A DNA stretch of 64,000 nt from Acidobacteriaceae bacterium (GTDB taxonomy: Bacteria > Acidobacteriota > Terriglobia > Bryobacterales > Bryobacteraceae): positions 1 to 64,000 of the forward strand of contig JAFAYL010000049.1 of assembly GCA_019240405.1 (NCBI GenBank). Direction: 5' to 3'. The notes below the pieces were generated by a model, which ran no database searches, had not been told where the DNA came from, and was given only the letters and a program-made list of their open reading frames with translations. A program made the translations under genes and the position numbers. Positions within the stretch are counted from its first letter, which is position 1; each line of letters opens with the position of its first letter. This document shows positions 3,209-56,524 of this stretch, piece by piece.

Positions 3209-4873
3209 ATGCGATTCGCAGCGCTCCTCTTCAGCCTCGGCGCCCTCGCCGTTGCCGATCCTCAATTTCAAATCCAGTTCTCTAGCTCCGCCAGATCCAC
3301 TCCCGCCGACGGTCGCCTCATCGTCATCGTCTCGAAACAACTCGATGGTGAGCCGCGCTTCCAGGTCGAATGGGGTATCGAAACGCAGCAGATTTTCGCT
3401 ACCGATGTTGATCAATGGAAACCTGGCGAACTCACACGCATGGATGCTGCCGCTATCGGTAGTCCGCTGCGCAGCTTGCGCGATCTCCCGCCCGGAACCT
3501 ACAACATCCAAGCGGTCCTGAATGTCTACGACACAGTCCATCGCGCTGACGGTCACACACTCAAGCTCCACATGGATCATGGCGAGGGGCAGCAATGGGA
3601 TCGTTCTCCCGGGAACATCTACAGCAAACCGCAGCGCGCAGAAATTGGACGCGATTCGGTAATTCGCATCGAATTGACTGACGTCATCCCTCCCATCACC
3701 CCACCTGAAGACACGAAGTTCCTCCGCCACGTGCGCATCGAAAGCAAACTGTTGACGAAATTCTGGGGCACACCCATACATCTATCCGCAACCGTCCTCG
3801 TGCCCGACGACTTCGATCAGCATCCCGACCAGCACTATCCCATCGCGTTTCTGCAAGGCCACTTCGATGAAGGCCGCAACATGCTTCGCGAGTCTCCCCC
3901 TCCTCCCGGCATGAAAGACCGAGAACGACGCAACGCCCAATTCGGGTACCGCTTGTACCAGGCCTGGACCACCGGCGAGCTGCCTAAAATGCTCATCGTC
4001 ATCACGCAGCATCCAACGCCTTACTATGACGATTCCTACGGCGTTAATACCGCCAATATGGGTCCGTATGGCGACGCACTTACACAGGACCTCTATCCCT
4101 ACATCGAACAAAAATTCCGTGCCATCGGCCAGCCTTGGGCGCGCGTTCTGTTCGGTGGCTCAACCGGCGGTTGGATGACGCTGGCCCAACAGATTTTCTA
4201 TCCCGACTATTTCGGCGGCGCCTGGGGCTTCTGCCCTGATCCCGTCGACTTCCACGTTTTCCAACTCGTCAATGTCTACGAGGACAAAAACGCGTACTTC
4301 GATGAAGGCCCCTTCGAGCGTCTCCCGAAACTTGTCGGCCGCTTACCGGACGATCACATCCTGGCCACCATGCAAGGCATGAGCCGGCAGGAAGCCGCGC
4401 TCGGCATCAAGGGACGTTCCGGCGGCCAGTTCGATGCATTTCACGCCACCTTCGGACCTACCGATGCCGAAGGTTATCCCGCCAAGCTGTGGAACGCGGA
4501 AACCGGCGCAATTGATCCCGCCATCGCGAAGTATTGGGAGCAGCACTACGATCTGACCGCGCTCCTCCAGCGCGATTGGCCCCGTCTCGGTCCCAAGCTC
4601 GTGGGCAAGCTGCACGTCACAGCCGGAACCAAGGACACCTTCTATCTCGATGCCGCCGCCCATCGCATGCAGGATTTTCTCGAAAGTACAAAACTGCCTG
4701 GCAAAGGCCCCTATTACGGTGGCTCCTTTGATTTCGGCATCGATAAGCCGCACTGCTACATCGGTGAAATTCCCGAAGGCCAGTCCATATTCACGCATTA
4801 CCTGCCCATCTTCGCGGAGCACATGAAAAATATGGCCCCTCCCGGAGCCGACATCAAAAGCTGGATGCCCTGA
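3209..4873 (+). CDS. Secreted esterase, alpha/beta hydrolase (esterase D/enterochelin esterase type)
   Basis: A 554-residue exported hydrolase. Residues 1-16 are a signal peptide. An N-terminal beta-rich region of about 170 residues precedes the hydrolase domain, which fits the putative-esterase family (enterochelin esterase, antigen 85 fold). The nucleophile elbow reads FGGSTGGW with the serine near residue 317, and a late histidine in DKPHCYIG (near 514) is the likely catalytic one. The stretch LYPYIEQKFRAIGQPWAR before the elbow is typical of the family. The substrate is not evident; polysaccharide acyl esters or siderophore esters are possibilities. It is monocistronic, with 100 bases to the next gene. 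Confidence 0.8.
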   Translation: MRFAALLFSLGALAVADPQFQIQFSSSARSTPADGRLIVIVSKQLDGEPRFQVEWGIETQQIFATDVDQWKPGELTRMDAAAIGSPLRSLRDLPPGTYNIQAVLNVYDTVHRADGHTLKLHMDHGEGQQWDRSPGNIYSKPQRAEIGRDSVIRIELTDVIPPITPPEDTKFLRHVRIESKLLTKFWGTPIHLSATVLVPDDFDQHPDQHYPIAFLQGHFDEGRNMLRESPPPPGMKDRERRNAQFGYRLYQAWTTGELPKMLIVITQHPTPYYDDSYGVNTANMGPYGDALTQDLYPYIEQKFRAIGQPWARVLFGGSTGGWMTLAQQIFYPDYFGGAWGFCPDPVDFHVFQLVNVYEDKNAYFDEGPFERLPKLVGRLPDDHILATMQGMSRQEAALGIKGRSGGQFDAFHATFGPTDAEGYPAKLWNAETGAIDPAIAKYWEQHYDLTALLQRDWPRLGPKLVGKLHVTAGTKDTFYLDAAAHRMQDFLESTKLPGKGPYYGGSFDFGIDKPHCYIGEIPEGQSIFTHYLPIFAEHMKNMAPPGADIKSWMP

Positions 4874-4973
4874 GTCACACGTTCCGAAGAAAAATTTTCT
4901 TCTGCTACATCCATAATTTCAGCGGATTTCCGACCGCATCCGGCTCGTCGGCAACTCCCGTCGTGCTACGTTC

Positions 4974-5714
4974 ATGCCCGTTATGACACCACGACAAATT
5001 CGTCGCGCCGCTGAGCGCCGACAACGAAAACTTGAAAGAAGAATGAATCACTCGCTCGCCGAACTCCCGACTGCGAGCCCGGAGCTAACCGACGGGTCAC
5101 CATCCCGCGCTGAAATCAATCGCGCAAACGCGCAGCACTCCACCGGCCCTCGCACCGATGAGGGCAAACGAATCTCCAGCCAAAATTCGTTCAAGCACGG
5201 CCTCTATTCCAAGCAGCTCGTGCTCCCGAACGAAAGCGCAGCCGAGCTAGATGAGCTGCGCGCCAAGCTCCGCTCCGAGCATCAACCCGTCAACACCACC
5301 GAAGAAATCCTGGTCAACGAAATCGCCGAAAATTTCTGGCGTCTTCGCCGCATGCGCAGCCTCGAAACCCACACCATGCAGCGCACCGATTTCTCGCAGT
5401 GGCTCGGCATGCTCCCGACCATTCACCGCGCCATGGCCTCCGCCGAACGCAGCCTCCACAAAGCTCTTTCCACCCTCCGCCAGCTCCAGCGCGATCGTGG
5501 CTTCGTTCCGCAACCGGTTTTCGAACAGAGCCGCGCGCAGAAGCAAGCGCCATCCGAAAATGGGTTCGTTTCGCAAAATGAGGCCGAAAATCCGCTCTCT
5601 GGCCTCGAAACTGGCTTCGTTTCGCAAGAAATTCCAGATTTTGCTTCTCCTGCGGCTTTCAGCGGCCAGTTTGTTTCGCAAAACGGACACGATTCGCTCG
5701 CCGAAGCAGCCTAG
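4974..5714 (+). CDS. RANAQ/STGP-family hypothetical protein, copy 1
   Basis: A 246-residue protein of unknown function. The centre carries INRANAQHSTGPRTDEGK followed by SSQNSFKHGLYS, the hallmark of a hypothetical family I know as abundant in acidobacteria. A predicted helical region (about 85-165) follows with SLETHTMQ and a Lys/Arg-rich LHKALSTLRQLQRDR segment. The N terminus is very basic (RQIRRAAERRQRKLERR), and the last 75 residues are low-complexity with four copies of a Phe-Val-x-Gln motif. No catalytic motif or signal peptide is visible; nucleic-acid binding is only a guess. A second member is at 54376-55047. Confidence 0.7.
   Translation: MPVMTPRQIRRAAERRQRKLERRMNHSLAELPTASPELTDGSPSRAEINRANAQHSTGPRTDEGKRISSQNSFKHGLYSKQLVLPNESAAELDELRAKLRSEHQPVNTTEEILVNEIAENFWRLRRMRSLETHTMQRTDFSQWLGMLPTIHRAMASAERSLHKALSTLRQLQRDRGFVPQPVFEQSRAQKQAPSENGFVSQNEAENPLSGLETGFVSQEIPDFASPAAFSGQFVSQNGHDSLAEAA
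5499..5684 (+). repeat. Four short repeats in the tail of RANAQ copy 1
   Basis: Near-identical 14-15 base units of the form GGCTTCGTTTCGCAA occur at about 5499, 5563, 5613 and 5669, spaced 50-65 bases. Each encodes Gly/Gln-Phe-Val-Pro/Ser-Gln. The repetition is sharper in DNA than protein need explains, suggesting duplication of a small unit. Confidence 0.6.
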
Positions 5715-19632: not shown

Positions 19633-20220
19633 ATGAGTGATCCAGCTCCTGAGACCACTACCAGTCCTTCGTCTCCCAGCGAGCCCACGCCGCGCCATTC
19701 CTCAATCATTACGGTGGTCGCTTGGTTTCGCGATTTGATGCTTTCTGTACTGGTCGCCGTTCTCTTGATTTTGTTTCTGTATCGCCCCGTGAAGGTCGAA
19801 GGGACCAGCATGATGCCGAGCCTTTACGATCAAGAGCGATTGTTTATTAATCAGTTCAGCTACAAATTTGGTCTCGGCGACATTAAGCGCGGCGATACGG
19901 TGGTTTTTTGGGCTCCCGACGACAACACGAAATCGTACATAAAGCGCGTCATCGGGGTGCCGGGCGATACAGTTTCGGTCGAGGACGGCTATGTCATTCT
20001 TAACGGCAAGAAGTTGGCCGAGAATTACGTTCCTCCCGAGTATCGTGACTACCGAAGTTACCCGGCCGTCGTAATTCCTCCCGGCGAATATTTTGTTTTG
20101 GGTGATCATCGAATCTCTTCGAATGACAGCCGCGCTTGGGGCCTGGTACCCAGGGACAACATCTATGGCAGAGCGGCTTTCGTATTCTGGCCGCCGGAAC
20201 GAATGGGTGTCGTTCGATAG
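19633..20220 (+). CDS. lepB: Signal peptidase I
   Basis: LepB cuts signal peptides from exported proteins at the periplasmic face of the inner membrane. The 195-residue protein has one N-terminal membrane anchor (about 32-53, LMLSVLVAVLLILFLY) and the Ser/Lys catalytic dyad: serine in VEGTSMMPSL (near 59) and lysine in SYIKRVIGVPGD (near 103). LGDHRISSNDSRAWG is the conserved box E. The window's many secreted proteins would be substrates. Convergent with the DUF2905 gene, with 13 bases between. Confidence 0.93.
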   Translation: MSDPAPETTTSPSSPSEPTPRHSSIITVVAWFRDLMLSVLVAVLLILFLYRPVKVEGTSMMPSLYDQERLFINQFSYKFGLGDIKRGDTVVFWAPDDNTKSYIKRVIGVPGDTVSVEDGYVILNGKKLAENYVPPEYRDYRSYPAVVIPPGEYFVLGDHRISSNDSRAWGLVPRDNIYGRAAFVFWPPERMGVVR

Positions 20221-20233
20221 AGTTCTTCTCAGG

Positions 20234-20452
20234 TCACGGTCGCCGGTTCAGAAACCATAGCAGCAGCGTACCGAGCAGACTTAGGATCAGGCAGGTTACC
20301 CAAGGAAAATAGATCGTCGTGTGCTTGCCGCGCCACACGATGTCACCGGGCATTCGGCCGAACGGCAAATTCAATTTGCTTGCGACCAAAACTAGAGCGC
20401 CAAGGCAGATAAGCAACGCTCCTGCCACGATAAGTAGGCGTCCCAAGTTCAC
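20234..20452 (-). CDS. DUF2905 small membrane protein
   Basis: A 72-residue inner-membrane protein with two hydrophobic helices (about 5-25 and 48-67) joined by LPFGRMPGDIVWRGKHTTIYFP, the signature of DUF2905. Its function is not known. It is short, alone, and convergent with lepB. Confidence 0.85.
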   Translation of the reverse strand: MNLGRLLIVAGALLICLGALVLVASKLNLPFGRMPGDIVWRGKHTTIYFPWVTCLILSLLGTLLLWFLNRRP

Positions 20453-20551
20453 GCTTTATTTGACGCCTATTATTCGAAAGAGTAGCGCGGTGAAACGCGT
20501 CTCCGGCGGTGCAGGCTGAGCTACACTGGCCGCTGAGAAGCCGATCTAAAT

Positions 20552-22510
20552 ATGAGCCAATCACAAACGTACGCTCCGAATCCTGAGTTCGCCGCGCGCG
20601 CCCAAGTAAAGAGCATCGAAGAATATCGCGCCCTGTACGAACGGGCCAAGACCGATCCTGAGCGTTTTTGGGCAGATTTAGCGTTGAAAGAACTCACTTG
20701 GTTTCGCCCTTTCGGGCAAACACTGGAGTGGCAAGCTCCGTTTGCAAAATGGTTTTCGGGCGGCAAAATCAACGCGTCCTACAACTGTCTCGATAGGCAT
20801 CTCACGACAGCGCGTAAGCAGAAGCCTGCGTTCATTTTTGAAGGCGAGCCGGGTGACCAGCGCGTGATCACCTATCAAGAGCTGCACCACCTCGTGAGCC
20901 GTTTCGCAACAGTTCTAAAACAGCTCGGATATCAGAGCGCCGATCGCGCGATTATTTACATGCCGATGATTCCGGAATTACCCGTTGCAATGCTCGCTTG
21001 CGCGCGGTTGGGTATCACTCATAGCGTCGTGTTCGGCGGGTTCTCGGCCGAAGCACTGAAGGCTCGCATCCTGGATCTAAACGCGACTGTGGTGATTACA
21101 GCCGATGGCGGGTGGCGCCGCGGACGTGAGGTGCGCCTGAAAGATGCAGTCGACGAGGCATTAGAAGACTGCCCAGATGTTCGGCACGTGGTCGTTTATA
21201 GGCGTACGGGTTCAGCAATTCCGATGAAGGAGGGACGCGACCATTGGTGGCACGAGCTTGATGCGCAACTTTCCAATGATCCGTTTATTCACCACGAAGC
21301 CGAAAACTGCCCGGCTGAAGAGCTCGATTCCGAACATCCGTTATACGTGCTCTATACGTCAGGAACAACCGGCAAACCGAAGGGCATTCTGCATACGACA
21401 GCCGGATATTTGCTTCAAACAGCGATAACGATGAAGTGGATATTCGATCTTCGCGAAGATGATGTCTATTGGTGCACAGCCGACATCGGTTGGGTCACCG
21501 GCCATAGTTACATCGTCTATGGGCCTCTCACCGCAGGCGCCACTTGCATCCTGTATGAGGGCGCGCCCGACTATCCGGCTTTCGATCGCTTTTGGCAGAT
21601 TGTCGAGAAGTACCGCGTCTCGATTTTCTACACCTCGCCCACCGCCATTCGAGCGCTCATCAAGCAAGGAGAGCGATGGCCCGAGGCACATGATCTGAGC
21701 AGCCTGCGCCTGCTTGGCTCGGTTGGCGAGCCGATTAATCCGGCTGCATGGGAATGGTACAACCGGGTGATTGGGAAAGAGCGTTGCCCCATCGTCGATA
21801 CATGGTGGCAGACCGAGACAGGCGCCATTATGATTTCGGCAATGCCTGGCGCGATCCCTACGAAGCCGGGTTCTGCAACGCTTCCACTCCCTGGAATTGT
21901 TGCCGACATCGTAGACCATAACGGCGCGCCTGTGCCCGCCAACCGCGAAGGTTATTTGGTAATTCGTCAGCCTTGGCCTTCGATGATCCGGAACATCTGG
22001 GGCGATCCGAAACGTTTTCAAGAGCAGTATTGGTCACGCGTTCCGAGTGCGTATTTCACGGGCGATGCAGCGAGGCGCGACGAAGATGGTTATTTCTGGG
22101 TGCTCGGGCGCGTGGATGACGTCATGAATGTCAGCGGCCACCGGTTGAGCACGATGGAGGTCGAGTCGGCGCTGGTCCATCATCCCGCTGTTGCGGAAGC
22201 AGCGGTCGTCGGCAAGCCCCACGAGATTACCGGCCAGGCGGTCTGCTGCTTCGTCACTCTGAAGCAAGGCGATTGGAATCATCAGGTCCTTGGAAACGAA
22301 TTGCGCCAATGGGTCGCCCATGAAATTGGCCCGTTTGCGCGGCCCGATGAGATTCGGATCACGGACGCGCTTCCAAAGACTCGCAGCGGCAAAATAATGC
22401 GAAGACTTCTGCGTGAGATCGTTACCACTCACGCAGTCACCGGCGATGTAACCACGCTCGAAGATCTTACGGTTGTAACGAAACTTGCTTCGCAGCAGGA
22501 TGAGGAATAG
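20552..22510 (+). CDS. acsA: Acetyl-CoA synthetase (AMP-forming)
   Basis: A 652-residue adenylating enzyme that turns acetate, ATP and CoA into acetyl-CoA, AMP and pyrophosphate, feeding acetate into central metabolism. Motifs: P-loop-like [19 protein letters not shown] (near 270), [30 protein letters not shown] and the C-terminal [14 protein letters not shown], whose lysine before IMRR is the conserved catalytic lysine that is acetylated in many bacteria. Length is typical of AcsA. Its stop codon is immediately followed by the stop codon of the OsmC gene on the other strand (TAG|CTA). Confidence 0.95.
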
Positions 22511-22936
22511 CTATTCTTCGAGCTTTGCGTCGAGTGTAATCTCTGTATCGAAAAGCTTCGAAACCGGGCAGCCTTCCTTCGCATTTTGTGTTGCGCGATC
22601 AAAAGCGTCTTGACTTGCACCGGGAATCTTCGCCCTGAGCTGTAGCGCGCTCTTTTTGATCGCAAAACCCTCACTCTCTTTTTCGAGCGTGACTCTGCAG
22701 GTTGTGTCGATGCTGTCCGCCTTCAGGCCCTCTTTCTGCAGCTCGGCTGACAGCGCCATCGAGAAGCAGCCTGCATGAGCCGCCGCGAGAAGCTCTTCAG
22801 GATTGGTCCCGTTGCCTTGTTCGAACCGGTCTCTGAACGAATAAGGCGTACTCGATAGAACACCGCTGCCCGTGGAGATCGTGCCGCCGCCGGATTTTAG
22901 ATCGCCCTTCCATTGCGCCTTCGCTGAACGTTCCAT
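22511..22936 (-). CDS. OsmC-family peroxiredoxin
   Basis: A 141-residue OsmC/Ohr superfamily protein that reduces organic peroxides in the cytoplasm using a cysteine pair. The two cysteines sit in AAAHAGCFSMAL (near 60) and AKEGCPVSKLF (near 125), with NPEELLAAAHA before the first, which points to OsmC rather than Ohr. AAGGAG just upstream of the ATG supports the start. Together with the exported superoxide dismutase it suggests exposure to oxidants. Confidence 0.9.
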   Translation of the reverse strand: MERSAKAQWKGDLKSGGGTISTGSGVLSSTPYSFRDRFEQGNGTNPEELLAAAHAGCFSMALSAELQKEGLKADSIDTTCRVTLEKESEGFAIKKSALQLRAKIPGASQDAFDRATQNAKEGCPVSKLFDTEITLDAKLEE

Positions 22937-23003
22937 TTCGTCTCCTTCGAATTGTCAGGTGTAAGACGCCGGGTGCCAGGAAATGGTCGCAAACAAAGTG
23001 ATT

Positions 23004-23672
23004 TCAGGCGAGGCGGGAAATCGCAGCGATCATCCTGCCGCGATTTTCAGGCTCGCGGCGGAACGAGAAGAATTGGGCGGATTGGCAGGCTGTACACAGT
23101 CCGCTATCGAAAATTCGGTCGGGATTCACGCCTGCCGTTTGCATTTGTCGGCGATTCGCTTCAGGAAGATCCATTTTGCGGCTCCCGGCGACACCTTCCC
23201 ATTCGGGAAAGAGCGGCTCGAACCGAGTTGCCACTTCCGCGCCGACTTCATAACAACAGCCCCGAATGCAAGGGCCCATCGCGGCGTAAACATTGGCGGG
23301 ATCAGTGTGGAAGTTTGCGCGCATGCTTTCGAGTGTGTGTTGAACCAGGTTTGCTGCTGTCCCGCGCCAGCCTGCATGCACCGCCGCAACAGCACGCGTT
23401 CGAGCATCGAGCAACAAAATGGCAACGCAATCGGCGGTTCGAACTCCGACGCTCTTTCCGATCTCGTCCGTGATCAAGGCATCGCCTTCAGTTTCGCGAT
23501 CGCTCAGCTCGCGAGCATTCAGCACACGATCGGAATGGATCTGACGAAGAGTTACGTCAGCGCGTGGGTTCGCATGGCGCGTTCCAAAGCCGTGTTTCTG
23601 CCAAACAAACACCTGAAATGCATCGCACCGGTAGATCCCATCCGGACCTAAGCGGAATGAACCGTCCGCCAC
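23004..23672 (-). CDS. pgeF: PgeF/YfiH laccase-domain protein
   Basis: A 222-residue YfiH/PgeF family protein. E. coli YfiH prevents misincorporation into peptidoglycan, and family members act as purine nucleoside phosphorylase/adenosine deaminase with a zinc or copper site. The site residues are visible: H in QIHSDRV, C in RTADCVAILLL and H in AAVHAGWRGT. GPCIRGCCYEVG and the late GLCTACQ...FFSFRRE stretch are also typical. The start is GTG. It lies 3 bases after the epimerase gene, so both are probably one transcript. Confidence 0.88.
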   Translation of the reverse strand: MADGSFRLGPDGIYRCDAFQVFVWQKHGFGTRHANPRADVTLRQIHSDRVLNARELSDRETEGDALITDEIGKSVGVRTADCVAILLLDARTRAVAAVHAGWRGTAANLVQHTLESMRANFHTDPANVYAAMGPCIRGCCYEVGAEVATRFEPLFPEWEGVAGSRKMDLPEANRRQMQTAGVNPDRIFDSGLCTACQSAQFFSFRREPENRGRMIAAISRLA

Positions 23673-23675
23673 AAG

Positions 23676-24647
23676 TTAACCGCGAGACGCTTTGGTGGAA
23701 ACCGTCTTGCGTTCGAGATCTGCGCGATACCAATCTAGTGTCAAACGCAGGCCTTGCTCGAAGGTAAATCTGGGTTTGTGTCCAAGCTCCTGCACCGCTG
23801 CACTCGTATCCGCTTGCGAATGGCGCACGTCACCCGGACGCGGCGGCCCGTATTTGGCTGGCAAGTCGATACCTTCGATCTTCTGAAGTAGCGCCCATGT
23901 CTCGTTAAGCGTGTAGCGATTTCCATTCCCCGCGTTGAACACTCTTCCCGAAACACCGCTCGCGTGCGCCGCTTTTAGCATCAATTCCACGACGTCTTCC
24001 ACGTAAGTGAAATCGCGGGTTTGCTCGCCGTCTCCGTAAATCGTCGGACTACGACGCTCGATCAGACAGGTCAGGAAAATGGAAAGCACTCCGGAGTACA
24101 CGCTTGTGGGATCCTGCCGTGGTCCGAACACGTTAAAGAACCTGAGAGAAACAGTCTCGAGACCGAAACATCCACAAAACGCAGTCGCGTAGTACTCTCC
24201 CACCAGCTTCTGCACAGCGTAGGGAGACTTGGGCCGTGGCGCCATCGTTTCGACTTTGGGAAGCACTTCGGTATCGCCATAAGCCGACGACGATGCTGCG
24301 TAGATGACTCTGCCCGCCTTGCCCTCAGTAGCTGCTCGGAAAACGTTGAACGTGCCGTCTATATTGCTCTCGTGACTTGGCACGGGATCGAGAATCGATT
24401 TCGGCACGGAGGGAAGCGCGCCGAGATGGAAGACTTGATCGGCTCCTTCGATCACGCGGGCGATTCGATCATAATGCCGGAGATCCACTTCGTGTACTGT
24501 GATCTCGTCTGCAACTTCCTCCAGATTGTCTAAGTTGCCCGTCGAGAGATTATCGATCACGTGGACACGGTGACCTTTCTCGAGCAGAGCTCGAACCAGG
24601 GCGGAACCGATGAACCCCGCTCCCCCCGTGACAATAGAACGATTCAT
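23676..24647 (-). CDS. NAD-dependent nucleotide-sugar epimerase/dehydratase
   Basis: A 323-residue extended short-chain dehydrogenase. The N-terminal GGAGFIGSALVRALL binds NAD, VIDNLSTG follows the second strand, and the catalytic set is AASSSAYGD (Ser) and YAVQK (Tyr and Lys). VSLRFFNVFGPRQDP and YVEDVVELML fit UDP-glucose 4-epimerase-like enzymes used in surface polysaccharide synthesis. Exact substrate (UDP-glucose, UDP-GlcNAc or UDP-glucuronate) cannot be told from motifs. It is the first gene of a pair with pgeF; no glycosyltransferases are nearby. Confidence 0.88.
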   Translation of the reverse strand: MNRSIVTGGAGFIGSALVRALLEKGHRVHVIDNLSTGNLDNLEEVADEITVHEVDLRHYDRIARVIEGADQVFHLGALPSVPKSILDPVPSHESNIDGTFNVFRAATEGKAGRVIYAASSSAYGDTEVLPKVETMAPRPKSPYAVQKLVGEYYATAFCGCFGLETVSLRFFNVFGPRQDPTSVYSGVLSIFLTCLIERRSPTIYGDGEQTRDFTYVEDVVELMLKAAHASGVSGRVFNAGNGNRYTLNETWALLQKIEGIDLPAKYGPPRPGDVRHSQADTSAAVQELGHKPRFTFEQGLRLTLDWYRADLERKTVSTKASRG

Positions 24648-24678
24648 ATAGTGAGTTTGGAAACGAAAAATCGAGTAT

Positions 24679-24711
24679 AAAAAAAGCGCCCCGTTGCACC
24701 GCGAGGCGCCC
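24679..24711 (-). terminator. Rho-independent terminator of csbD
   Basis: Read on the minus strand, arms GCGCC and GGCGC (24705-24709 and 24686-24690) enclose a loop that can pair further, followed by a run of seven T (24685-24679). It lies 30 bases past the csbD stop. Confidence 0.6.
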
Positions 24712-24738
24712 TAATGGCTATCTTAATTGAGGATGAAT

Positions 24739-24990
24739 TTAAAGCTTTGAACCGCTGGCAGTGCGCGCGCCGGTTTCTTGCTTTATCTCAGCGGCCGAGG
24801 CACGAGCCCATTCGTCCGCCTCCTTTTCGGCTTGTTCGCGCGTAATACCGTAGCGCTCCTGGATCTTCCCTACCAGCTCATCTTTCTTTCCGCTGAGCTT
24901 AGTGATCTCGTCATCTGTGAGCTTGCCCCAACGCTGTTTTACAGATCCTTTTAGCTGTTTCCACTTGCCTTCAAACTGATCCGAATTCAT
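24739..24990 (-). CDS. CsbD-family stress protein
   Basis: An 83-residue hydrophilic, helical protein of the CsbD family, often induced by general stress; its biochemical role is unknown. The N-terminal MNSDQFEGKWKQLKGSVKQRWGKL is a textbook CsbD start. The ATG at 24990 is chosen because AAGGAGAG lies 7 bases before it; the frame itself extends 15 codons upstream without family similarity. It has its own terminator, so it is monocistronic, and it is divergent from purC. Confidence 0.88.
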   Translation of the reverse strand: MNSDQFEGKWKQLKGSVKQRWGKLTDDEITKLSGKKDELVGKIQERYGITREQAEKEADEWARASAAEIKQETGARTASGSKL

Positions 24991-25149
24991 GTCGAGCCTC
25001 TCCTTCATCTTCATGGGGTGCAATCCATAGACCAAATCAGTTTTTAGTAATTTACGTTATGAATCAGACTAAATATGTGCAAATTCTTCCTACTCCAGCG
25101 CCATTTTTGCCAGGAGTCGGATTGGTACCCTTTGGGATACTCGGAGGTA

Positions 25150-26049
25150 ATGTGCCAGGACGAGGTTCTCCTCACGACGAGCCTTTCGCTTCCTCTTCTA
25201 CGTCGCGGCAAAGTGCGCGATGTGTACGATCTCGGCGACGCACTGCTCTTCATAGCCACAGACAGGATTTCAGCGTTCGACTGCGTGCTCGCGAGCGGGA
25301 TTCCATGCAAAGGGCGAGTGCTGAATCAAATGTCGCTTTTCTGGTTTGAATTTCTGCGCGATACCGTCCCTTCCCATCTTTTGACCGCGGATCCAGCGGA
25401 GTACCCTAGAAAGCTGACAAAACACCGGAGAATGCTCACGGGGCGATCGATGCTTGTAAGAAAAGCCCGCATGATCGAGTTCGAGTGCGTCGCGCGAGGC
25501 TATCTCGCAGGATCAGGATGGAAGGAATACACAGCGCAGGGGACGGTTTGCGGCATTCCATTGCCGTCCGGGTTGCGCGAGGGCGACCGGCTGCCGGACC
25601 CGATTTTTACGCCGGCCACAAAAGCTGACACCGGTCACGACACAAACGTTCCTTTTAAGTACGTCGCGAACGTATTAGGGCTGGAATTAGCAGGCCAGCT
25701 TCGTGATTTCACGCTGCAGATTTACGAACGAGCGGCAGCGTACGCATTAAAACGAGGAATCATACTGGCTGATACGAAATTCGAATTTGGCTTCGTTGGA
25801 GATGAACTGGTTCTCGGTGATGAAGTATTGACTCCTGACTCGTCGCGGTACTGGCCTGCGGATTCGCATCGTCCAGGTGGCCCGCAGCTCTCTTTTGATA
25901 AGCAATACGTTCGCGATTACCTCGAAACGCTGAATTGGAACAAGCAGCCTCCCGCGCCTGCTCTTCCGAACAATGTCGTTCACAAGACAAGCGAGAAATA
26001 TGAAGAGGCCTATACGAGACTGACAGGCCGGACACTTAACGAATCTTAG
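25150..26049 (+). CDS. purC: SAICAR synthetase (purine biosynthesis)
   Basis: PurC joins aspartate to CAIR with ATP, a middle step of IMP synthesis in the cytoplasm. Motifs: GKVRDVYDLGDALLFIATDRISAFD near the N terminus, ECVARGYLAGSGWKEY, and ILADTKFEFGF with VLGDEVLTPDSSRYW. The ATG at 25150 gives 299 residues, normal for the family; GGAGG at 25143-25147 is unusually close. A TTG at 25132 with GGAGTCGG upstream is an alternative, and the frame opens at 25075. It is followed after 8 bases by cvpA and heads a long set of closely packed genes. Confidence 0.92.
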   Translation: MCQDEVLLTTSLSLPLLRRGKVRDVYDLGDALLFIATDRISAFDCVLASGIPCKGRVLNQMSLFWFEFLRDTVPSHLLTADPAEYPRKLTKHRRMLTGRSMLVRKARMIEFECVARGYLAGSGWKEYTAQGTVCGIPLPSGLREGDRLPDPIFTPATKADTGHDTNVPFKYVANVLGLELAGQLRDFTLQIYERAAAYALKRGIILADTKFEFGFVGDELVLGDEVLTPDSSRYWPADSHRPGGPQLSFDKQYVRDYLETLNWNKQPPAPALPNNVVHKTSEKYEEAYTRLTGRTLNES

Positions 26050-26057
26050 AGGCTCAA

Positions 26058-26627
26058 ATGCGCTCCACGCAGGCGTTCAACTGGTTCGATGTCGTGCTGA
26101 TCTTAATCATGCTTTGGTCGGCGCTGGCGGGTCTACGAGCCGGGTTTGCACGAGTTATTGTCCACCTGATTGCGACGATTGTTGGCTTAGTCGCTGGTTT
26201 CTGGTTTTATCGGATGCTCGCAGCCGAATTGATTCCGTGGGTCAAAAATATCACGGCGGCAAATATTATGGCTTTTCTGATCATTTTCGTCGGGGTGCTT
26301 ATCATTGGATCGCTCGTATCGGCTCTTCTGTCCCGGCTGTTCCGGTGGGTGGGGCTTTCCTGGTTCAACCATGTTTTGGGCGGTGCTGCCGGAGTGATAC
26401 GCGGGGCCCTTGTCATTGCGGTGCTTGTCGATGTAATGATCGCGTTCTCGCCTTCTCCCACTCCGGCGTTTCTTGACAACTCCCGAGTCCTCCCCTACAC
26501 GCTGCAGATTTCATCTTGGATCGTTGATCTCGCGCCGCGCGAGTTGAAAGACGCGTTTACGGAACAGATGAAAAACCTGAAGCAATTTTGGGCGCCGCAG
26601 CAAGACGGCCACTCGCGGGAAGTCTGA
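26058..26627 (+). CDS. CvpA-family membrane protein
   Basis: A 189-residue inner-membrane protein with four predicted helices. The first carries NWFDVVLILIMLWSALAGLRAGFARV, the CvpA signature, and a conserved Gly-rich GGAAGVIRGALVIAVLVDVMI lies in the last helix. E. coli CvpA is needed for colicin V production and sits beside purF; association with purine genes recurs here (purC). The basic function is unresolved. AGAGG precedes the ATG. Confidence 0.85.
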   Translation: MRSTQAFNWFDVVLILIMLWSALAGLRAGFARVIVHLIATIVGLVAGFWFYRMLAAELIPWVKNITAANIMAFLIIFVGVLIIGSLVSALLSRLFRWVGLSWFNHVLGGAAGVIRGALVIAVLVDVMIAFSPSPTPAFLDNSRVLPYTLQISSWIVDLAPRELKDAFTEQMKNLKQFWAPQQDGHSREV

Positions 26628-26655
26628 TAATCGCAGGCCTTTAGGAACGGCTGAT

Positions 26656-27315
26656 TTGCTGATCATCTTCGATCTCGATGGCACTCTCATCGATTCCAGT
26701 ACCGATCTGGCAATTTCGATGAATGCCACCCGCGCGCATTTTGGTCTTGCGCCGCTCGATCCGAATCTGATTTATTCCTACGTCGGGAATGGAGCGGCGG
26801 TCTTAGTGCGCTGCGCGATGGGCCTGACCGCTCCTGAAGACAAGGTGCAGGAAGCGCTGCAATTTTTCCTGAAGTTTTATCGCGCGCATGCGCTGGAGCA
26901 TACAAAACTTTATCCCGGCGTTCGGGAAATGGTCGAAACACTTTACCGGGAAGAACATAAACTGGCGGTTCTGACGAACAAGCCCGTGCGCATCAGCTTT
27001 GACATCATTGGCGCGTTGCGGCTCCAAAAGTGTTTCTTCCACGTGTATGGAGGTGACAGCTTTCGCAGCAAGAAACCCGATCCGATCGGTGTCCATGAAT
27101 TAATGAGCGAAGCAGGCGTAGCTGCGTCTGAGACGCTGTTGGTAGGTGACAGCGCCGTGGATGTACAAACAGCGCGGAATGCGGGGATACGCAGTTGCGG
27201 AGTTAGCTGGGGCTTTCAACCCGAAGCTTTTCAGATCGAGCCGCCCGATATGCTCATTCACGAGCCGCGACAATTAATAGAGCAACTAAACTCGTTCAGC
27301 CGTTCGGGAATTTAG
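26656..27315 (+). CDS. gph: Phosphoglycolate phosphatase-like HAD hydrolase
   Basis: A 219-residue haloacid dehalogenase-type phosphatase. Motif I is FDLDGTLIDSS at residues 5-15, motif II threonine in VLTNKP, the motif III lysine in RSKKPDP and motif IV in VGDSAVDVQTARNAG. This fits Gph, which removes phosphoglycolate formed by DNA repair or carbon metabolism, though related phosphatases with other substrates look alike. The start is TTG directly before LIIFDLDG. It lies 10 bases from the VWA gene that follows. Confidence 0.85.
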   Translation: MLIIFDLDGTLIDSSTDLAISMNATRAHFGLAPLDPNLIYSYVGNGAAVLVRCAMGLTAPEDKVQEALQFFLKFYRAHALEHTKLYPGVREMVETLYREEHKLAVLTNKPVRISFDIIGALRLQKCFFHVYGGDSFRSKKPDPIGVHELMSEAGVAASETLLVGDSAVDVQTARNAGIRSCGVSWGFQPEAFQIEPPDMLIHEPRQLIEQLNSFSRSGI

Positions 27316-27325
27316 CCGAAGCAGT

Positions 27326-29593
27326 ATGTTCGAATTTCTCTTCAAATACCCTCCCGGCGTGTTTTCGAAGGGAACATTCGTGCTGCTGGGTTCATGGCCG
27401 CGATGGGTCTTCGGTTTGACGATCGTGGCCGCTGCTGCTCTACTCGCCTGGGTGACTTGGAGGAAATGGGCCCGCTCGGGATCTCGTCTCCCGGCTTCAA
27501 TGTGGCGTGGCCGGGCCGTGATTGTCTGGGCGCTGCAATCCGCGATGATCGCGCTGTTGCTTCTGCTTCTTTGGGAACCTGCGCTCAGTGTGGCTTCGCT
27601 GAAACTGCAGCAAAATGTGATCGCGGTGCTCATTGACGACAGCCGCAGCATGGGAATTAACGACGGCGGTGAATCACGGGAGCAGCAAGCGATCGGCCTG
27701 CTACGCTCCGGACTGCTGACCGATCTCCAAACCCGCTTCCAAGTCCGGCTGTACAGTTTGGATGCCGGTGTCGAGCGTATTCAAAGCGCGGAACAATTGA
27801 GGGCTGCCGGTAACGCGACGCAAATCGGAAAAGGGCTGCGGCAAATCGCAGATGAGGCGGGCACGTTACCCATAGGCGCAGTGATCCTGTTGAGCGACGG
27901 CGCGGATAATTCTAGCGGCGTCGATGCCGCCACTCTCGCCGAACTACGGCGGAGGCGATTGCCGGTGAACACGATCGGCTTTGGCAGAGAGAAGATGAGA
28001 CGCGATGTCGAGCTGGACGGGTTGGATTTGCCAAATCAGGCGTTAGCAAGCTCTCGCTTGGAAGCCCAGGTTACGATTCGCCAAAGCGGTTTCGGCGGAA
28101 AGCGCGCGCATCTTATTTTGGCAAGCGATGGACGCATGCTCGCGAGCCGCGATATCGTACTGCAGGACAGCGGTCAGCAGATTGAGCGTGTTGAATTCGA
28201 TGCGGGCGCTGCGGGTGTGAAAAACATTCACGCGAGAATCAGTGCTCTGCCGGGCGAGGAGAACACCGCGAATAATGAGCTCACTCGCGTGCTTCGCGTG
28301 GATGAAACGAAACGGCGCATCCTCTATGTGGAAGGAGAGCCGCGATGGGAATATAAATTTCTCAGGCGCGCGCTCGAAGACGACCCGGCGATACAGATCG
28401 TTTCGATATTGCGAACGACAGAAAACCGAATCTATCGCCAGGGAATCAGCCGCCCCGATGAGTTGGTCGATGGCTTTCCGAACAAACCCGAAGCTCTATT
28501 CGAGTATCACGGACTAATTCTCGGCAGCGTCGAATCGGCGTTTTTCACGGCAACGCAGCAAGAATTGATCAAGCAATTTATCGATGGGCGGGGAGGAGGC
28601 GTGCTGTTTCTCGCCGGGCGATGGGCGCTCTCGGACGGCGGCTACGATGTTGCGCCATTCGCGGAGTTACTCCCCGTGGTGCTGCCAAAACGCAAGAATA
28701 CATTTCACCAGCAATTGGCGGCTGCCGAAATCGCGGATGCAGGAAAGCAAAGCTTGATTTGCCGGATTGAAGACGATCCGGAGAAGAATTTGAATCACTG
28801 GTCGGAGCTACCGTATTTGGCAAATTACCAAGATCCCGGAGCGCAAAAGCCCGGAGCTGTTGTCCTGCTGCGAACCAATCTCAACGGCAATCGCATTCCT
28901 CTGCTGATTAGCGAAAATTATGGGCGCGGCAGAACGGCTGTGTTGGCAAGCGCAGGGACCTGGCGCTGGCGGATGCAGCAGCCCGTGAGCGACACCAGCC
29001 AGGAGAGATTTTGGCGGCAGCTCTTGAGATGGTTAGTAAGTGCAACGCCGTCGCGAGTTGTAGCGTCCACGGGAACACCGGGGCTCGAAGATGACGGCCG
29101 GATCGAATTTCGCGCCGATGTGCGCGACATGAGCTATCTTCCGACCGGCGATGCCGAAGTGGAGGCGCATATCATTCGGCCGGACGGCTCAGCCGATACA
29201 TTGCCGATGCGGCCTGAACCTTTATCGCAGGGGACATACTCACTGAGCTGGTTTGCAGCGACGCCGGGCTCCTATGTGGCAGAGATCACGGCCAAGATCG
29301 GGGCGCGGGAAGTCGGGAGAGATGTTGTGACGTTCCGCCGCGAAAACGGGGTAGCAGAAAATTTCCATCAAGAACAGAATCGCGAATTGCTGGAAAAACT
29401 CGCCTCCGAAACGGGCGGCAGTTATTACAAACCGGGCGAGGCGCGCAAACTTTCGCGAGAAATTTCGTATTCGGAGGCCGGAATCACTAGCCGCGAAACG
29501 AAGGATTTATGGGATATGCCGGCAGTATTTTTTGCGGTGATCGCATTGCGCTCCGCAGAATGGCTGCTGCGTAGGAAATGGGGCGCGATATGA
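27326..29593 (+). CDS. Membrane VWA protein with glutamine-amidotransferase-like domain
   Basis: A 755-residue inner-membrane protein. Two helices (about 27-47 and 62-82) precede a von Willebrand A domain with an intact metal site: DDSRS at 104-108, T in NATQIGKGL and D in LLSDGADN. A beta-rich region follows, then a class I glutamine-amidotransferase-like domain (about 330-560, starting RRILYVEGEPRWEYKFLRRAL) seen in bacterial VWA proteins without its catalytic triad. A last hydrophobic stretch (near 735) may be a third helix. Such proteins accompany MoxR ATPases, as here. Its stop overlaps the next start (ATGA). Confidence 0.8.
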   Translation: MFEFLFKYPPGVFSKGTFVLLGSWPRWVFGLTIVAAAALLAWVTWRKWARSGSRLPASMWRGRAVIVWALQSAMIALLLLLLWEPALSVASLKLQQNVIAVLIDDSRSMGINDGGESREQQAIGLLRSGLLTDLQTRFQVRLYSLDAGVERIQSAEQLRAAGNATQIGKGLRQIADEAGTLPIGAVILLSDGADNSSGVDAATLAELRRRRLPVNTIGFGREKMRRDVELDGLDLPNQALASSRLEAQVTIRQSGFGGKRAHLILASDGRMLASRDIVLQDSGQQIERVEFDAGAAGVKNIHARISALPGEENTANNELTRVLRVDETKRRILYVEGEPRWEYKFLRRALEDDPAIQIVSILRTTENRIYRQGISRPDELVDGFPNKPEALFEYHGLILGSVESAFFTATQQELIKQFIDGRGGGVLFLAGRWALSDGGYDVAPFAELLPVVLPKRKNTFHQQLAAAEIADAGKQSLICRIEDDPEKNLNHWSELPYLANYQDPGAQKPGAVVLLRTNLNGNRIPLLISENYGRGRTAVLASAGTWRWRMQQPVSDTSQERFWRQLLRWLVSATPSRVVASTGTPGLEDDGRIEFRADVRDMSYLPTGDAEVEAHIIRPDGSADTLPMRPEPLSQGTYSLSWFAATPGSYVAEITAKIGAREVGRDVVTFRRENGVAENFHQEQNRELLEKLASETGGSYYKPGEARKLSREISYSEAGITSRETKDLWDMPAVFFAVIALRSAEWLLRRKWGAI

Positions 29594-54364: not shown

Positions 54365-54375
54365 GGCAAGTTGGT

Positions 54376-55047
54376 TCAGGCGGCGCGGGCGGAGATTTGG
54401 TCCTTGTCGGGGGAGCTGGAGTTTTCTCCGCTTGCTGACACGCGCGGTTCGGTTGTGTCGGGAGTTCCGGATGAAAAAACGAAGCCAATTTCGGACTTGG
54501 CAGGCTCAGGTGACGCATGCGTCGCCCCTACAGGCTTCTTGAGACGCGCTTGTTGTAGCTGGCGGAGTTCGGCTAGATCCTTCTGGTAGTACCGGCGAAG
54601 GCGAGATTCTTGAATGCTGAGATTGTTCAACTGCTTCTGCTGGGTGATGAAGGTATGAGCTTGAATGAGCGCTTCGCGGACGTCGGGCTGTTCTTCCTGA
54701 AACATATTTTTGAAATTCAGGCGCGCGAGGGCGTAGATGCCCATTTCCAAAGACGGAATGCGGTTGAGGCGCCATTGGGTATCGGCGAGAGATTGGACGA
54801 GCTCGGTTTCACGCTCTCCGACGGGATTGAATTGGGAAGCGAAACGGGCGACGTGGCGCTCGTAGAGAGCGGCGTCATCACTAGAAAGCAGGACGGTGCG
54901 GCCAGTCAAAGCGCTCTTAACCGCGTTCAAAGAGGATTTGGCTTTGCCTTCCGGCGTTTTCGGACCGGTGGAAAGTTGGGAATTCGCGCGGTTAGCGGTG
55001 ACACGCGCCGCGGAGGCTAATGAGTTGGCGGTGGAAGAGAATTCCAT
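54376..55047 (-). CDS. RANAQ/STGP-family hypothetical protein, copy 2
   Basis: A 223-residue member of the same family as the protein at 4974-5714. TANRANSQLSTGPKTPEGKAKSSLNAVKS near residues 15-45 is the shared signature, followed by a helical region with LVQSLADTQWRLNRIPSLEMGIY and a basic coiled stretch (LRRYYQKDLAELRQLQQ). The last 50 residues read through repeat-like DNA (VGATHASP, GFVFSSG). The frame is open far upstream to 55488, but the ATG at 55047 gives the family start, and the extension has no protein-like features. Function unknown. Confidence 0.72.
   Translation of the reverse strand: MEFSSTANSLASAARVTANRANSQLSTGPKTPEGKAKSSLNAVKSALTGRTVLLSSDDAALYERHVARFASQFNPVGERETELVQSLADTQWRLNRIPSLEMGIYALARLNFKNMFQEEQPDVREALIQAHTFITQQKQLNNLSIQESRLRRYYQKDLAELRQLQQARLKKPVGATHASPEPAKSEIGFVFSSGTPDTTEPRVSASGENSSSPDKDQISARAA
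54509..54526. repeat. Palindromic repeat element inside RANAQ copy 2
   Basis: GGTGACGCATGCGTCGCC is an almost perfect palindrome around GACGCATGCGTC, flanked by CCCCTACAGG. It resembles the dispersed GACGCATGCGTC repeats I know from some bacterial genomes and here encodes VGATHASP in the protein tail. Only one copy was seen in this window. Confidence 0.5.
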
Positions 55048-55213
55048 GGCGGCTACACGGTAGCACGCGAAAGGGCGAAAACGAACTCTGGATTCGAAAA
55101 ATTGGTTGTAAGTGGCTGTAAAGCAGGTAAAAGGAAAGTTTTGGAAATCTGTGACTCCTATTATTTGGTCACGAAGGAAACGCGGGGCCGGGCGGCGTGC
55201 ATCTTTAGTTTTA

Positions 55214-56524
55214 ATGCGGCGGCAGCTCGTTTCGGTAGTCATTTTTTCGGTTTGGATTCCTGTGTGCTTGGTAGCGCAATACGGCGCTCCAATTGGAGGT
55301 GGCGGGCTGCCTCTGCCGTGGCACCACAAGAAGAGCCAGAAGGATTCCACAGGGCTGCCGACGATTTCCGCCGATGGGAGGACCGTCTCAAACGACGGAA
55401 AGAAGCTGGTCGTTGCCACGGAGGATGGGCGCACGCTTACGCTAAAGGTCGAATCCAAAACCAAGTTCGCGCAGTCAGGAAAGGACATAGCCGCAGCGCA
55501 GATTGTGCCGCGAACCCAGGTCCACGTTGAAGCTGCCGAAGATGAAGAGGCTTATCTGACGGCAGTCCGCGTCGAGCTGGTTAAAGATGCCGGACAGAAC
55601 GTGGGGCAGACCGAAGCGCCGGCCAGCTCCGGAGCAGGCGACCAGCCGGACAGGCCGCGTTCGACAGTTTCAGAGAGTCCGGTGGATGCACCCGACCGGC
55701 CGATCCTCCGGCGGGGGAAACCCAAGACGGAGGAATCCGCGAGTCCGCCCCGGGCGGAGAGTCACAACAACGGCACAGACTTCACCATTACCGAGGATGA
55801 CGCCAACTCCGACGCGCGAAACAGGCCGGCTTACGACGCGCTGATTGGGCGGGCGAAGGACTGGGCGCTGAATTTCACGAGCGGTCTACCTAATTTCGTG
55901 TGCCAGCAGTCGACGACGAGATATATGGAGGAATCTAAGTCCTCGGGCTGGCAAGCGCAGGATGTGGTTACGGCGAAAGTTGTTTTTGAAGACGGGAAGG
56001 AGAGCTATAGCGAGATCACGGTCGGCGGGAAGCGAGTCAACAAGAGCATGCTCGAATTGGGCGGCTCAACTTCGATCGGAGAGTTTGCTTCTGTTCTGCG
56101 CAGCCTGTTCTCCGATGCAAGCCAAACGCAGTTCACGTTCTACCGCTCGGCGACGATACGCGATCTGCCGGCCGCAATTTACGATTTCAAGGTTGGGCTG
56201 CGGAACTCGGATTGGTTTACACAAGTCGGCGGACAGAGCCTGAAGCCGGCCTACAGCGGGAGTGTGTGGGTGGACCGGTCGACGGCCGAGGTCCGGCGGA
56301 TTGAGCTCGAGGCGAACAACATTCCCAAAGATTTTCCTCTCGATATGGTGCAGTGGGCGATCGATTACGACAAAGTCCGGCTTGGGACGGCGGATTTCCT
56401 TCTACCGGTGCATGCCGAGAATCTCGCGTGCTGGCGGGGATCCACGACGTGCGTCAAGAACGCGATCGATTTCCGCGACTATCACAAGTTCTCGGGCGAA
56501 AGCACGATCACGTTTGAGAAGTAG
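55214..56524 (+). CDS. Secreted protein of unknown function
   Basis: A 436-residue exported protein if started at the ATG of MRRQLVSVVIFSVWIPVCLVAQ (signal peptide to about residue 22). A small beta region (about 40-110, ISADGRTVSNDGKKLVVATEDGRTLTLKV) is followed by a disordered Pro/Ser/Glu-rich linker (about 115-205). A conserved C-terminal domain (about 205-436) has NFTSGLPNFVCQQSTTRY, then SIGEFASVLRSLF and SGSVWVDRSTAEVRRIELEANNIP. I recall such domains in acidobacterial secreted proteins, without function. A GTG at 55112 would extend the frame without a clear signal peptide. No ribosome binding site is obvious. Confidence 0.65.
   Translation: MRRQLVSVVIFSVWIPVCLVAQYGAPIGGGGLPLPWHHKKSQKDSTGLPTISADGRTVSNDGKKLVVATEDGRTLTLKVESKTKFAQSGKDIAAAQIVPRTQVHVEAAEDEEAYLTAVRVELVKDAGQNVGQTEAPASSGAGDQPDRPRSTVSESPVDAPDRPILRRGKPKTEESASPPRAESHNNGTDFTITEDDANSDARNRPAYDALIGRAKDWALNFTSGLPNFVCQQSTTRYMEESKSSGWQAQDVVTAKVVFEDGKESYSEITVGGKRVNKSMLELGGSTSIGEFASVLRSLFSDASQTQFTFYRSATIRDLPAAIYDFKVGLRNSDWFTQVGGQSLKPAYSGSVWVDRSTAEVRRIELEANNIPKDFPLDMVQWAIDYDKVRLGTADFLLPVHAENLACWRGSTTCVKNAIDFRDYHKFSGESTITFEK

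Follow-up and report, generated by a model that had tools for sequence, protein, structure and literature searches.

The closest described relatives of the genes reported here are found in phage genomes, where HGG_STG proteins (NF041373, NF040601; phrog_9231) are encoded before TerL, as in vB_BboS-125 (AYP68434). The RANAQ/STGP family shares with these proteins the STGP core and some of the helical sequence behind it, but it is without the zinc knuckle and the neighboring TerL, is chromosomal and multicopy, and has a GF[EV]x/AA tail. In SaPI and PICI systems, a terminase small subunit (TerS) diverts packaging to its own DNA. This is an idea that may carry over to the present family, although the family unit is a single gene and no island, integrase, or other genes were seen. 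REP/RAYT and IS200/IS605 elements are dispersed, produce no target duplication, and are strand-biased; the family shows the same three traits and a conserved 5′ motif, CRNTCACAR, but it has no transposase gene in the unit, and paired terminal hairpins were not seen by eye. It differs from a DDE insertion sequence in that no transposase family is among the matches shown and no target duplication above shuffled pairs is found in 45 copies. Of gene transfer agents (GTAs), one study describes RcGTA TerS (gp1) as binding TerL through its C-terminal helix, with terS directly upstream of terL, and describes GTA terS genes as adjoining terL upstream and encoding 92-125 residues (PMC6854486). When set beside this account, our family is likewise helical and its own genome also has a compact head/tail cluster, whereas the family genes are orphans, occur in many copies, and mostly encode more than 200 residues. 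A search of the main text of PMC5900883 gave no mention of gene transfer agents, and no paper on the RANAQ/STGP family is among those listed by the literature searches.

The stretch of DNA that we analyzed, 64 kb in length and called the window below, contains two ORFs carrying RAN[AS]QxSTGP[RK]T[DP]EGK, in agreement with the original prediction, which had placed the shared motif in proteins at 4974 and 54376. Copy 1 (4974-5714, forward strand) has its core at about codons 44-170, followed by a GFVSQ motif and the C-terminus ...AEAA*. Copy 2 (54376-55047, reverse strand, with the start at 55047 and the stop at 54378-54376) ends in ...ARAA* and is recovered by copy 1 at E 3.2e-16 in a search of their own genome, far beyond chance. 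The true start of copy 1 is probably the second ATG, at 4983, because several family members begin MTPRxIRRAAER, and copy 2 most likely starts at 55047 rather than 55488, because in both closest paralogs a stop about 15 codons 5′ of the matching ATG closes the frame. The neighbors, named by eye, are a hydrolase-like gene (ending at 4873) and a metX-like gene for copy 1, and a FabH-like gene (ending at 54364) and an ORF at 55112-56524 with a probable start at 55214 for copy 2. At about 20000-28000 of the window, the GC skew, mostly negative at first, becomes mostly positive near 25-26 kb, and the two copies sit on opposite sides of this change and on opposite strands.

A helical region following the motif, and a lack of assigned function, had both been proposed for these proteins, together with structure prediction for the conserved center. 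In the AF2 model (mean pLDDT 81.5), copy 2 is all-helical, with helices at 7-24, 32-48, 59-73, 78-111, 121-135, and 137-170, which bears out the first point. As to the second, the two window proteins have no Pfam, NCBIfam, or PHROG match better than E 0.09. Eight columns, N, S, G, G, N, P, R, and L, are invariant in 48 aligned members. Searches of the family libraries with these 48 members gave no name, since no family was matched by more than six of them; the best isolated E-values were 0.001, for a tyrosine recombinase, and 0.004, and tyrosine recombinase matches were confined to 2 of the 48. HGG_STG (NF041373) is matched by four of the 48 members at a best E of 0.09, and its curated cutoff of 29 bits is not reached by either window protein (copy 2 scores 11 bits at E 0.27, and copy 1 gives no match). 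Foldseek with the copy 2 model gave no match at E 0.001 in the PDB or BFVD, and TerS is absent among the 50 rows listed for each; the VIA rows, all of mixed helical type, do not exceed Z 7.3. As modeled, the helices taken together with the conserved tail motif could fit the layout of TerS, with an N-terminal DNA-binding part, oligomerizing helices, and a C-terminal TerL-binding segment.

The lead to phage packaging proteins is provided by viral contigs in which STGPxTxEGK proteins are encoded close to apparent terminase genes. Copy 1 matches one such protein, from contig L025, at E 9e-10 in a single comparison (40 of 129 positions identical), and the family profile matches seven phage proteins at 97.9% and E 3.6e-13 (single comparison, 94 columns), the aligned part being the STGPxTxEGKxxSxxNSxxHGLYS core and some of the following helical sequence. 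All seven match HGG_STG, and three of the seven match NF040601 "TerS_not_xtmA", a phage terminase small subunit (best E 2.6e-5 among matches listed to E 1). One phage STGP protein matches phrog_6177, a group whose function is not known, at E 3.6e-6, and then phrog_9231, terminase small subunit, at E 1.9e-5. In Bacillus phage vB_BboS-125 (AYP68434), the STGP gene abuts that of a "terminase-like family protein", after which comes the portal, and in four IMG/VR contigs (L308, L309, L311, and L314) the gene has a homologue of the vB_BboS-125 terminase (E 4e-289 or lower) as its next large ORF. The STGP genes of phages Jayan and MVC_VPHSA1 lie 1.1 and 0.9 kb before TerL, respectively, with other genes between, and in PcaP2EGY and MACPNOA1 no annotated terminase occurs in the stretch around the STGP gene; the INPHARED surroundings that we inspected are those of four of the eight records of one search and of one record from the copy 1 search. 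In that copy 1 search of INPHARED, vB_BboS-125 comes up at E 0.02, besides a match of 23 residues at E 6; two distant members found no relatives in INPHARED or in the viral scans. When copy 2 alone is compared with the vB_BboS-125 protein, the match is limited to 22 residues.

Several observations bear on how far this relationship extends. In L028-type contigs from IMG/VR, a separate 87-residue HGG_STG/STGP protein is followed by a different TerS (phrog_1482, E 3.5e-19) and then by TerL; the STGP protein is distinct from TerS in these phages, and the shared motif alone therefore does not define TerS. In contig L026, the large ORF after the STGP gene has no terminase match. The zinc knuckle of the phage relatives (CGA..C..RC..HGG) is missing from the 48 aligned family members, and none of the ORFs in the 188 records around family members (median 3.7 kb, overlapping records counted separately) resembles the TerL set used or the resident TerL, portal, scaffold, or capsid. 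Because neither a zinc knuckle nor a TerL neighbor was found, we describe the family as TerS-like and not as TerS. Judged from the sequence comparisons, the core is probably, and with good confidence, related to phage TerS-region proteins, and a relationship to TerS itself appears fairly likely.

The original prediction had also proposed a large, expanded family from the two window copies, and counts of members per genome agree with it. The own genome, a 4.45 Mb MAG in 63 contigs, gives 24 matches with copy 1 and 28 with copy 2, some of which are pieces of one copy, at about 20 loci. From ORF frames and matches, we count about 14 whole or nearly whole copies, 4 broken copies, and 6 contig-end pieces; among the broken copies, C24 is interrupted, C11 and C30 are frameshifted, and C12:182061 is truncated. 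By DNA identity, subfamily A1 comprises about 10 copies in this genome (mostly 87-96% over 350-720 bp), A2 three (window copy 2, C32, and C57; 87-90%), B1 three (93-96%), and B2 two (90%); two contig-end pieces are 95% identical, and the remaining copies, window copy 1 included, are single. Family matches were obtained in 36 of 60 genomes, namely 17 of 17 of the genus, 16 of 19 others of the taxonomic family, and 3 of 24 beyond it. Far from being rare within the genus, matches number 6-49 in every member (the own genome and 16 genus-mates); up to 48 candidates were scored per genome, and for genomes with more than that the counts are lower bounds. In a sample of the phylum, 4 of 297 genomes have matches, the own genome among them, and absence here is weaker evidence because the scoring took in nine candidates per genome. 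Named genomes, when scanned, yielded at least 309 relatives among 577 stretches. The best 80 of these are mainly Acidobacteriota MAGs, several of them titled Bryobacteraceae or Bryobacterales, and include core-only relatives titled Planctomycetota, Armatimonadetes, Chloroflexi, Rubrobacteraceae, and others.

The paralogs are under purifying selection (omega about 0.1). Within A1, dN/dS is 0.04-0.27 and mostly about 0.1, at dS of 0.16-0.63, when four pairs of identical contig-end overlaps are left out. In G024, a near-complete relative (a 6.69 Mb contig plus one), 19 family matches, five of them partial, separate by strand into two arcs, and 18 of the 19 are codirectional with replication (away from the origin) compared with 90 of 186 ordinary ORFs from 20 sample stretches (p 2.5e-5), a result that comes from this one genome. 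The replication map takes dnaA, at 3.81 Mb, as the origin and its antipode as the terminus, since GC skew is too weak for placing the origin; the sole exception to codirectionality is a fragment 41 kb beyond the antipode. When the direction is assigned by GC skew in the own genome (G000), 18 of 24 copies agree with it compared with 150 of 279 control ORFs, which is suggestive (p 0.054). The GC skew of the flanks leans one way in 25 of 27 cases in G016, G011, and G012 and in 10 of 13 in G024, counts that come without a matched control.

Comparison of the flanks, which had been proposed as a way to look for mobility, shows that the site of copy 2 is empty in relatives, and simple vertical inheritance is thus not seen there. 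The FabH-like gene and the next gene are directly adjacent, with a short spacer and no family member between them, in 13 of 14 genus-mates that have the FabH-like orthologue (one further row is a paralog). The stretch at 54365-55175, between the stop of the FabH-like gene (54364) and the ORF at 55112-56524, is absent in the relatives, and the spacer sequence common with them (GGAAAC...) resumes at 55176 in the window, so copy 2 lies within an insertion of about 800 bp. At the metX locus, no family member is found upstream in the DNA examined from 15 of 15 genus-mates with metX, one of which offers just 48 bases upstream; the evidence on copy 1 is weaker because the conservation is limited to the metX side. 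The copies share DNA from the leader motif to about the stop codon, and their flanks are otherwise unrelated: across 431,675 bases around copies, nothing besides the gene and one 69-bp match repeats between stretches at E 1e-10. With high confidence, then, we regard the family as mobile. An uptake-signal-like hyperabundant k-mer was also considered and was set aside, as none is prominent in the 431,675 bases sampled.

A non-mobile host family, with a nucleoid, regulatory, or anti-phage decoy role, that was amplified by duplication and gene conversion and maintained by selection, would account for the low dN/dS and for the existence of decayed copies, and co-orientation with replication could itself be selected. 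We consider this explanation unlikely, however, as copy 2 is a clean single-gene insertion, the sequence shared between the sampled stretches at E 1e-10 is limited to the gene and the one 69-bp match, and the copy number ranges from 0 to 49 within one taxonomic family.

The unit has a defined 5′ end. The family leader, which recurs across genomes, consists of CRNTCACAR, then an AT-rich stretch, then TCAACMACTTAC, and both boxes jointly are found with three or fewer mismatches in 24 of 77 leaders compared with 0 of 77 reverse-complement controls. The leader of copy 2 (55048-55155, reverse strand) has GTCACAG at 55155-55149 and TTTACAGCCACTTACA at 55122-55107, and DNA homology between copy 2 and its C57 paralog starts at 55155. 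The region upstream of copy 1 (4874-4973, forward strand) is a weak match to the family leader, with GTCACA at 4874-4879, immediately 3′ of the stop codon of the hydrolase-like gene (4871-4873). In G024, ten copies are 85-96% alike, and the eight with an intact, unmasked leader have a common 5′ end at (T)TCACAG, about 110 bp before the ATG; similarity ends at the stop codon or a few bases from it, and two copies share more downstream DNA. An exact TCACA is present in 45 copies; of these, 34 have C at position -2 and 40 have a purine at position -1. The B1 copies have about 48 bp past the stop codon in common, and the 3′ end therefore falls close to the stop without always coinciding with it. 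No terminal inverted repeats were seen by eye in the alignment of the ten G024 copies, and no transposase family is among the matches shown from the family-library searches with 48 members. Target duplication shows no excess over shuffled pairs in 45 copies, and an ACCAA match at copy 2 was accordingly rejected as one.

Other repeats and inserts accompany some of the copies. A REP-like sequence, TGTAGGGGC/CGTAGGG...GCCC, lies directly 3′ of several A1 stop codons (L034, L037, L038, L043, and L046), and several G024 copies have another repeat, about 105 bp long (GGGGGACGGAGCACTCATTTCCCC...), nearby in their upstream flanks (L172, L175, and L178). The C24 copy (L105:6890-8400) is split by an insert that a palindrome adjoins; by eye, we take the insert to resemble an IS256-type transposase piece and the fragment beside it (IWQRGYWERIIRNEDELNRTRIYI) to be RAYT-like. 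On C14 of the own genome (L092:7007-7779), units of about 102 bp that are 85-91% alike are arrayed in tandem, on the same stretch as two family copies.

These features allow a second account of the mobility, in which the leader and ORF are a passenger that a Y1 HUH transposase of the RAYT or IS200/IS605 type would mobilize in trans, in single-stranded form, at the replication fork, with the protein serving the host or stabilizing the unit. The missing target duplication and the orientation bias relative to replication are what such a passenger would show, and the REP-like sequence 3′ of the stop in several A1 copies, the repeats in some G024 flanks, and the RAYT-like fragment seen by eye beside one broken copy point in the same direction; the nucleotides 3′ of the stop are, however, weakly biased, and end hairpins common to the copies were not seen by eye. 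We rate this account as rather unlikely. That the RANAQ protein is itself a new type of recombinase or mobility factor copying its own gene is quite unlikely, for although a one-gene unit with a defined 5′ end, strong purifying selection on dispersed paralogs, and bursts of similar copies that are not confined to a single genome would suit it, the eight invariant columns are by eye unlike a known recombinase site, the model is all-helical, and tyrosine recombinases are matched in isolated cases, by 2 of 48 members with a best E of 0.001.

Our preferred explanation, offered tentatively, is that the RANAQ/STGP genes are a dispersed, orphan, TerS-like mobile single-gene unit (a leader plus one ORF) with a putative packaging role; taken by itself, action of the family in packaging strikes us as somewhat unlikely. 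The protein would be laid out as an N-terminal STGP part, central helices, and a variable tail with GF[EV]x and often a C-terminal Ala-Ala. It may bind DNA, probably its own leader, and the tail may recruit a packaging ATPase, in which case phage or GTA-like particles would preferentially package the DNA around each copy, and the gene would spread along with that DNA. The orientation bias together with the lack of target duplications hints that new, non-homologous sites are entered at the replication fork. In its most specific form, this proposal is of a minimal "packaging-recognition cassette", a selfish one-gene element that combines a TerS-like protein with its own recognition leader, and which would be present in tens of copies in one orientation relative to replication, would mark the chromosome for directional packaging by the resident capsid/TerL cluster or by passing phages, and would travel with the packaged DNA; we hold this full form to be improbable. 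If our preferred explanation is right, genomes of soil Acidobacteriota contain dozens of unannotated mobile genes with phage DNA-packaging roots, and packaging-driven gene transfer in hard-to-culture bacteria could be tested by sequencing capsid-protected DNA. Even without a packaging role, a mobile gene tied to the direction of replication would be an unusual element, and one that is unnamed in current family libraries.

Packaging by resident machinery directs attention to the one Terminase_6N match of the own genome, at C43, after which come matches for portal, scaffold, major head, and minor tail; no family member lies beside this cluster. The cluster (C43:36000-45300, L344) is compact and has a domesticated or GTA-like look, with mostly one TerL match per relative. 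The order TerL-portal-scaffold-capsid is found in 10 of 10 further stretches long enough to show it, across which capsids are 69-91% and TerL 49-73% identical while the host genes alongside differ. In G020, a 101-residue ORF lies immediately upstream of the cluster TerL, and it is possible that the cluster has an unrelated terS. The cluster TerL occurs in 35 of the 60 genomes, a count that includes G002, G006, and G012, whose matches are distant or fragmentary and which may have another terminase, and G004, with a 93-residue end piece. It is present in 32 of 36 family-positive relatives compared with 3 of 24 family-negative ones (32 with both, 4 with the family only, 3 with TerL only, and 21 with neither); the Fisher value of 2e-9 for this co-occurrence ignores ancestry, which confounds the link. 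In the phylum sample, the capsid gene is found in G000, G335, and, remotely, G243, and the family in G000, G234, G069, and G148, so that 0 of 3 other family-positive genomes have the capsid gene. G234 and G335 belong to one genus, and the first has the family without the capsid, the second the capsid without the family. Three cluster stretches also give weak profile matches (E 0.03-0.08), none of them next to TerL and all taken as chance. The pairing of the family with the cluster is put forward as a hypothesis; co-occurrence in close relatives supports it, and the phylum sample contradicts it.

The tails of the two copies had been described as unrelated and rich in repeats, and the first part of this description is not supported. 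Of 81 distinct members, 62 have GF[EV][FCSP] in their later part, compared with 20 of 279 ordinary ORFs in which it was sought anywhere in the protein, so that the searched lengths differ. A C-terminal Ala-Ala is found in 46 of 81 members and in 3 of 271 ordinary ORFs; related copies are included in our totals of 77 and 81 members, and after similar tails are grouped, 28 of 57 groups are still mostly AA-ended. The tail of copy 2 is common to two other copies in the own genome (88% and 85% protein identity, residues 1-222). A DNA-level 3′ end motif behind the Ala-Ala can be eliminated because the terminal alanine codons, GCC in 30 of 46 at each position, match the body usage of 64% GCC; the ending is therefore a protein feature, and could be read as a ClpXP-type degron.

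The Phe-Val-x-Gln units of copy 1, which had been noted as nearly identical in DNA, are real at the DNA level but are not specific to the family, as they belong to a repeat dispersed through the genome. The units, [GQ]FV[SP]Q, lie at 5499-5683 on the forward strand, with copies of the DNA repeat at 5499-5512, 5562-5575, 5613-5626, and 5670-5683. With one mismatch or fewer, TTCGTTTCGCAAAA has three matches in this tail; with two or fewer, it has four in the window compared with 1.0 expected, a number reached by 0 of 100 shuffles. Across the own genome, GGSTTCGTTTCGCA has 44 matches at one mismatch or fewer compared with 5 for the reversed control, and in several of 18 inspected loci the unit lies between genes or within ORFs that have no relation to the family. 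This genome-wide dispersal of GGSTTCGTTTCGCA rules out a protein repeat family as the full account of the copy 1 tail. The tail repeats thus combine a short conserved motif with dispersed DNA.

The tail of copy 2 contains a palindrome-bearing stretch, GTAGGGGCGACGCATGCGTC (54512-54531, reverse strand), that is in frame and reads VGATHAS; it has a single match in the 64-kb window at three or fewer mismatches, and it may be a dispersed repeat elsewhere. The dispersed repeat of the copy 1 tail (window 5499-5683), around GGGTTCGTTTCGCAAAA (44 genome matches at one mismatch or fewer compared with 5 reversed), is clustered, occurs on both strands and sometimes as inverted pairs, and is found at loci L059-L088, for example, C4:43359-43568, C46:152638-152679, and C12:92321-92352. 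By eye, it also lies within housekeeping-like ORFs, including selD-, pyrF-, and ispE-like ones.
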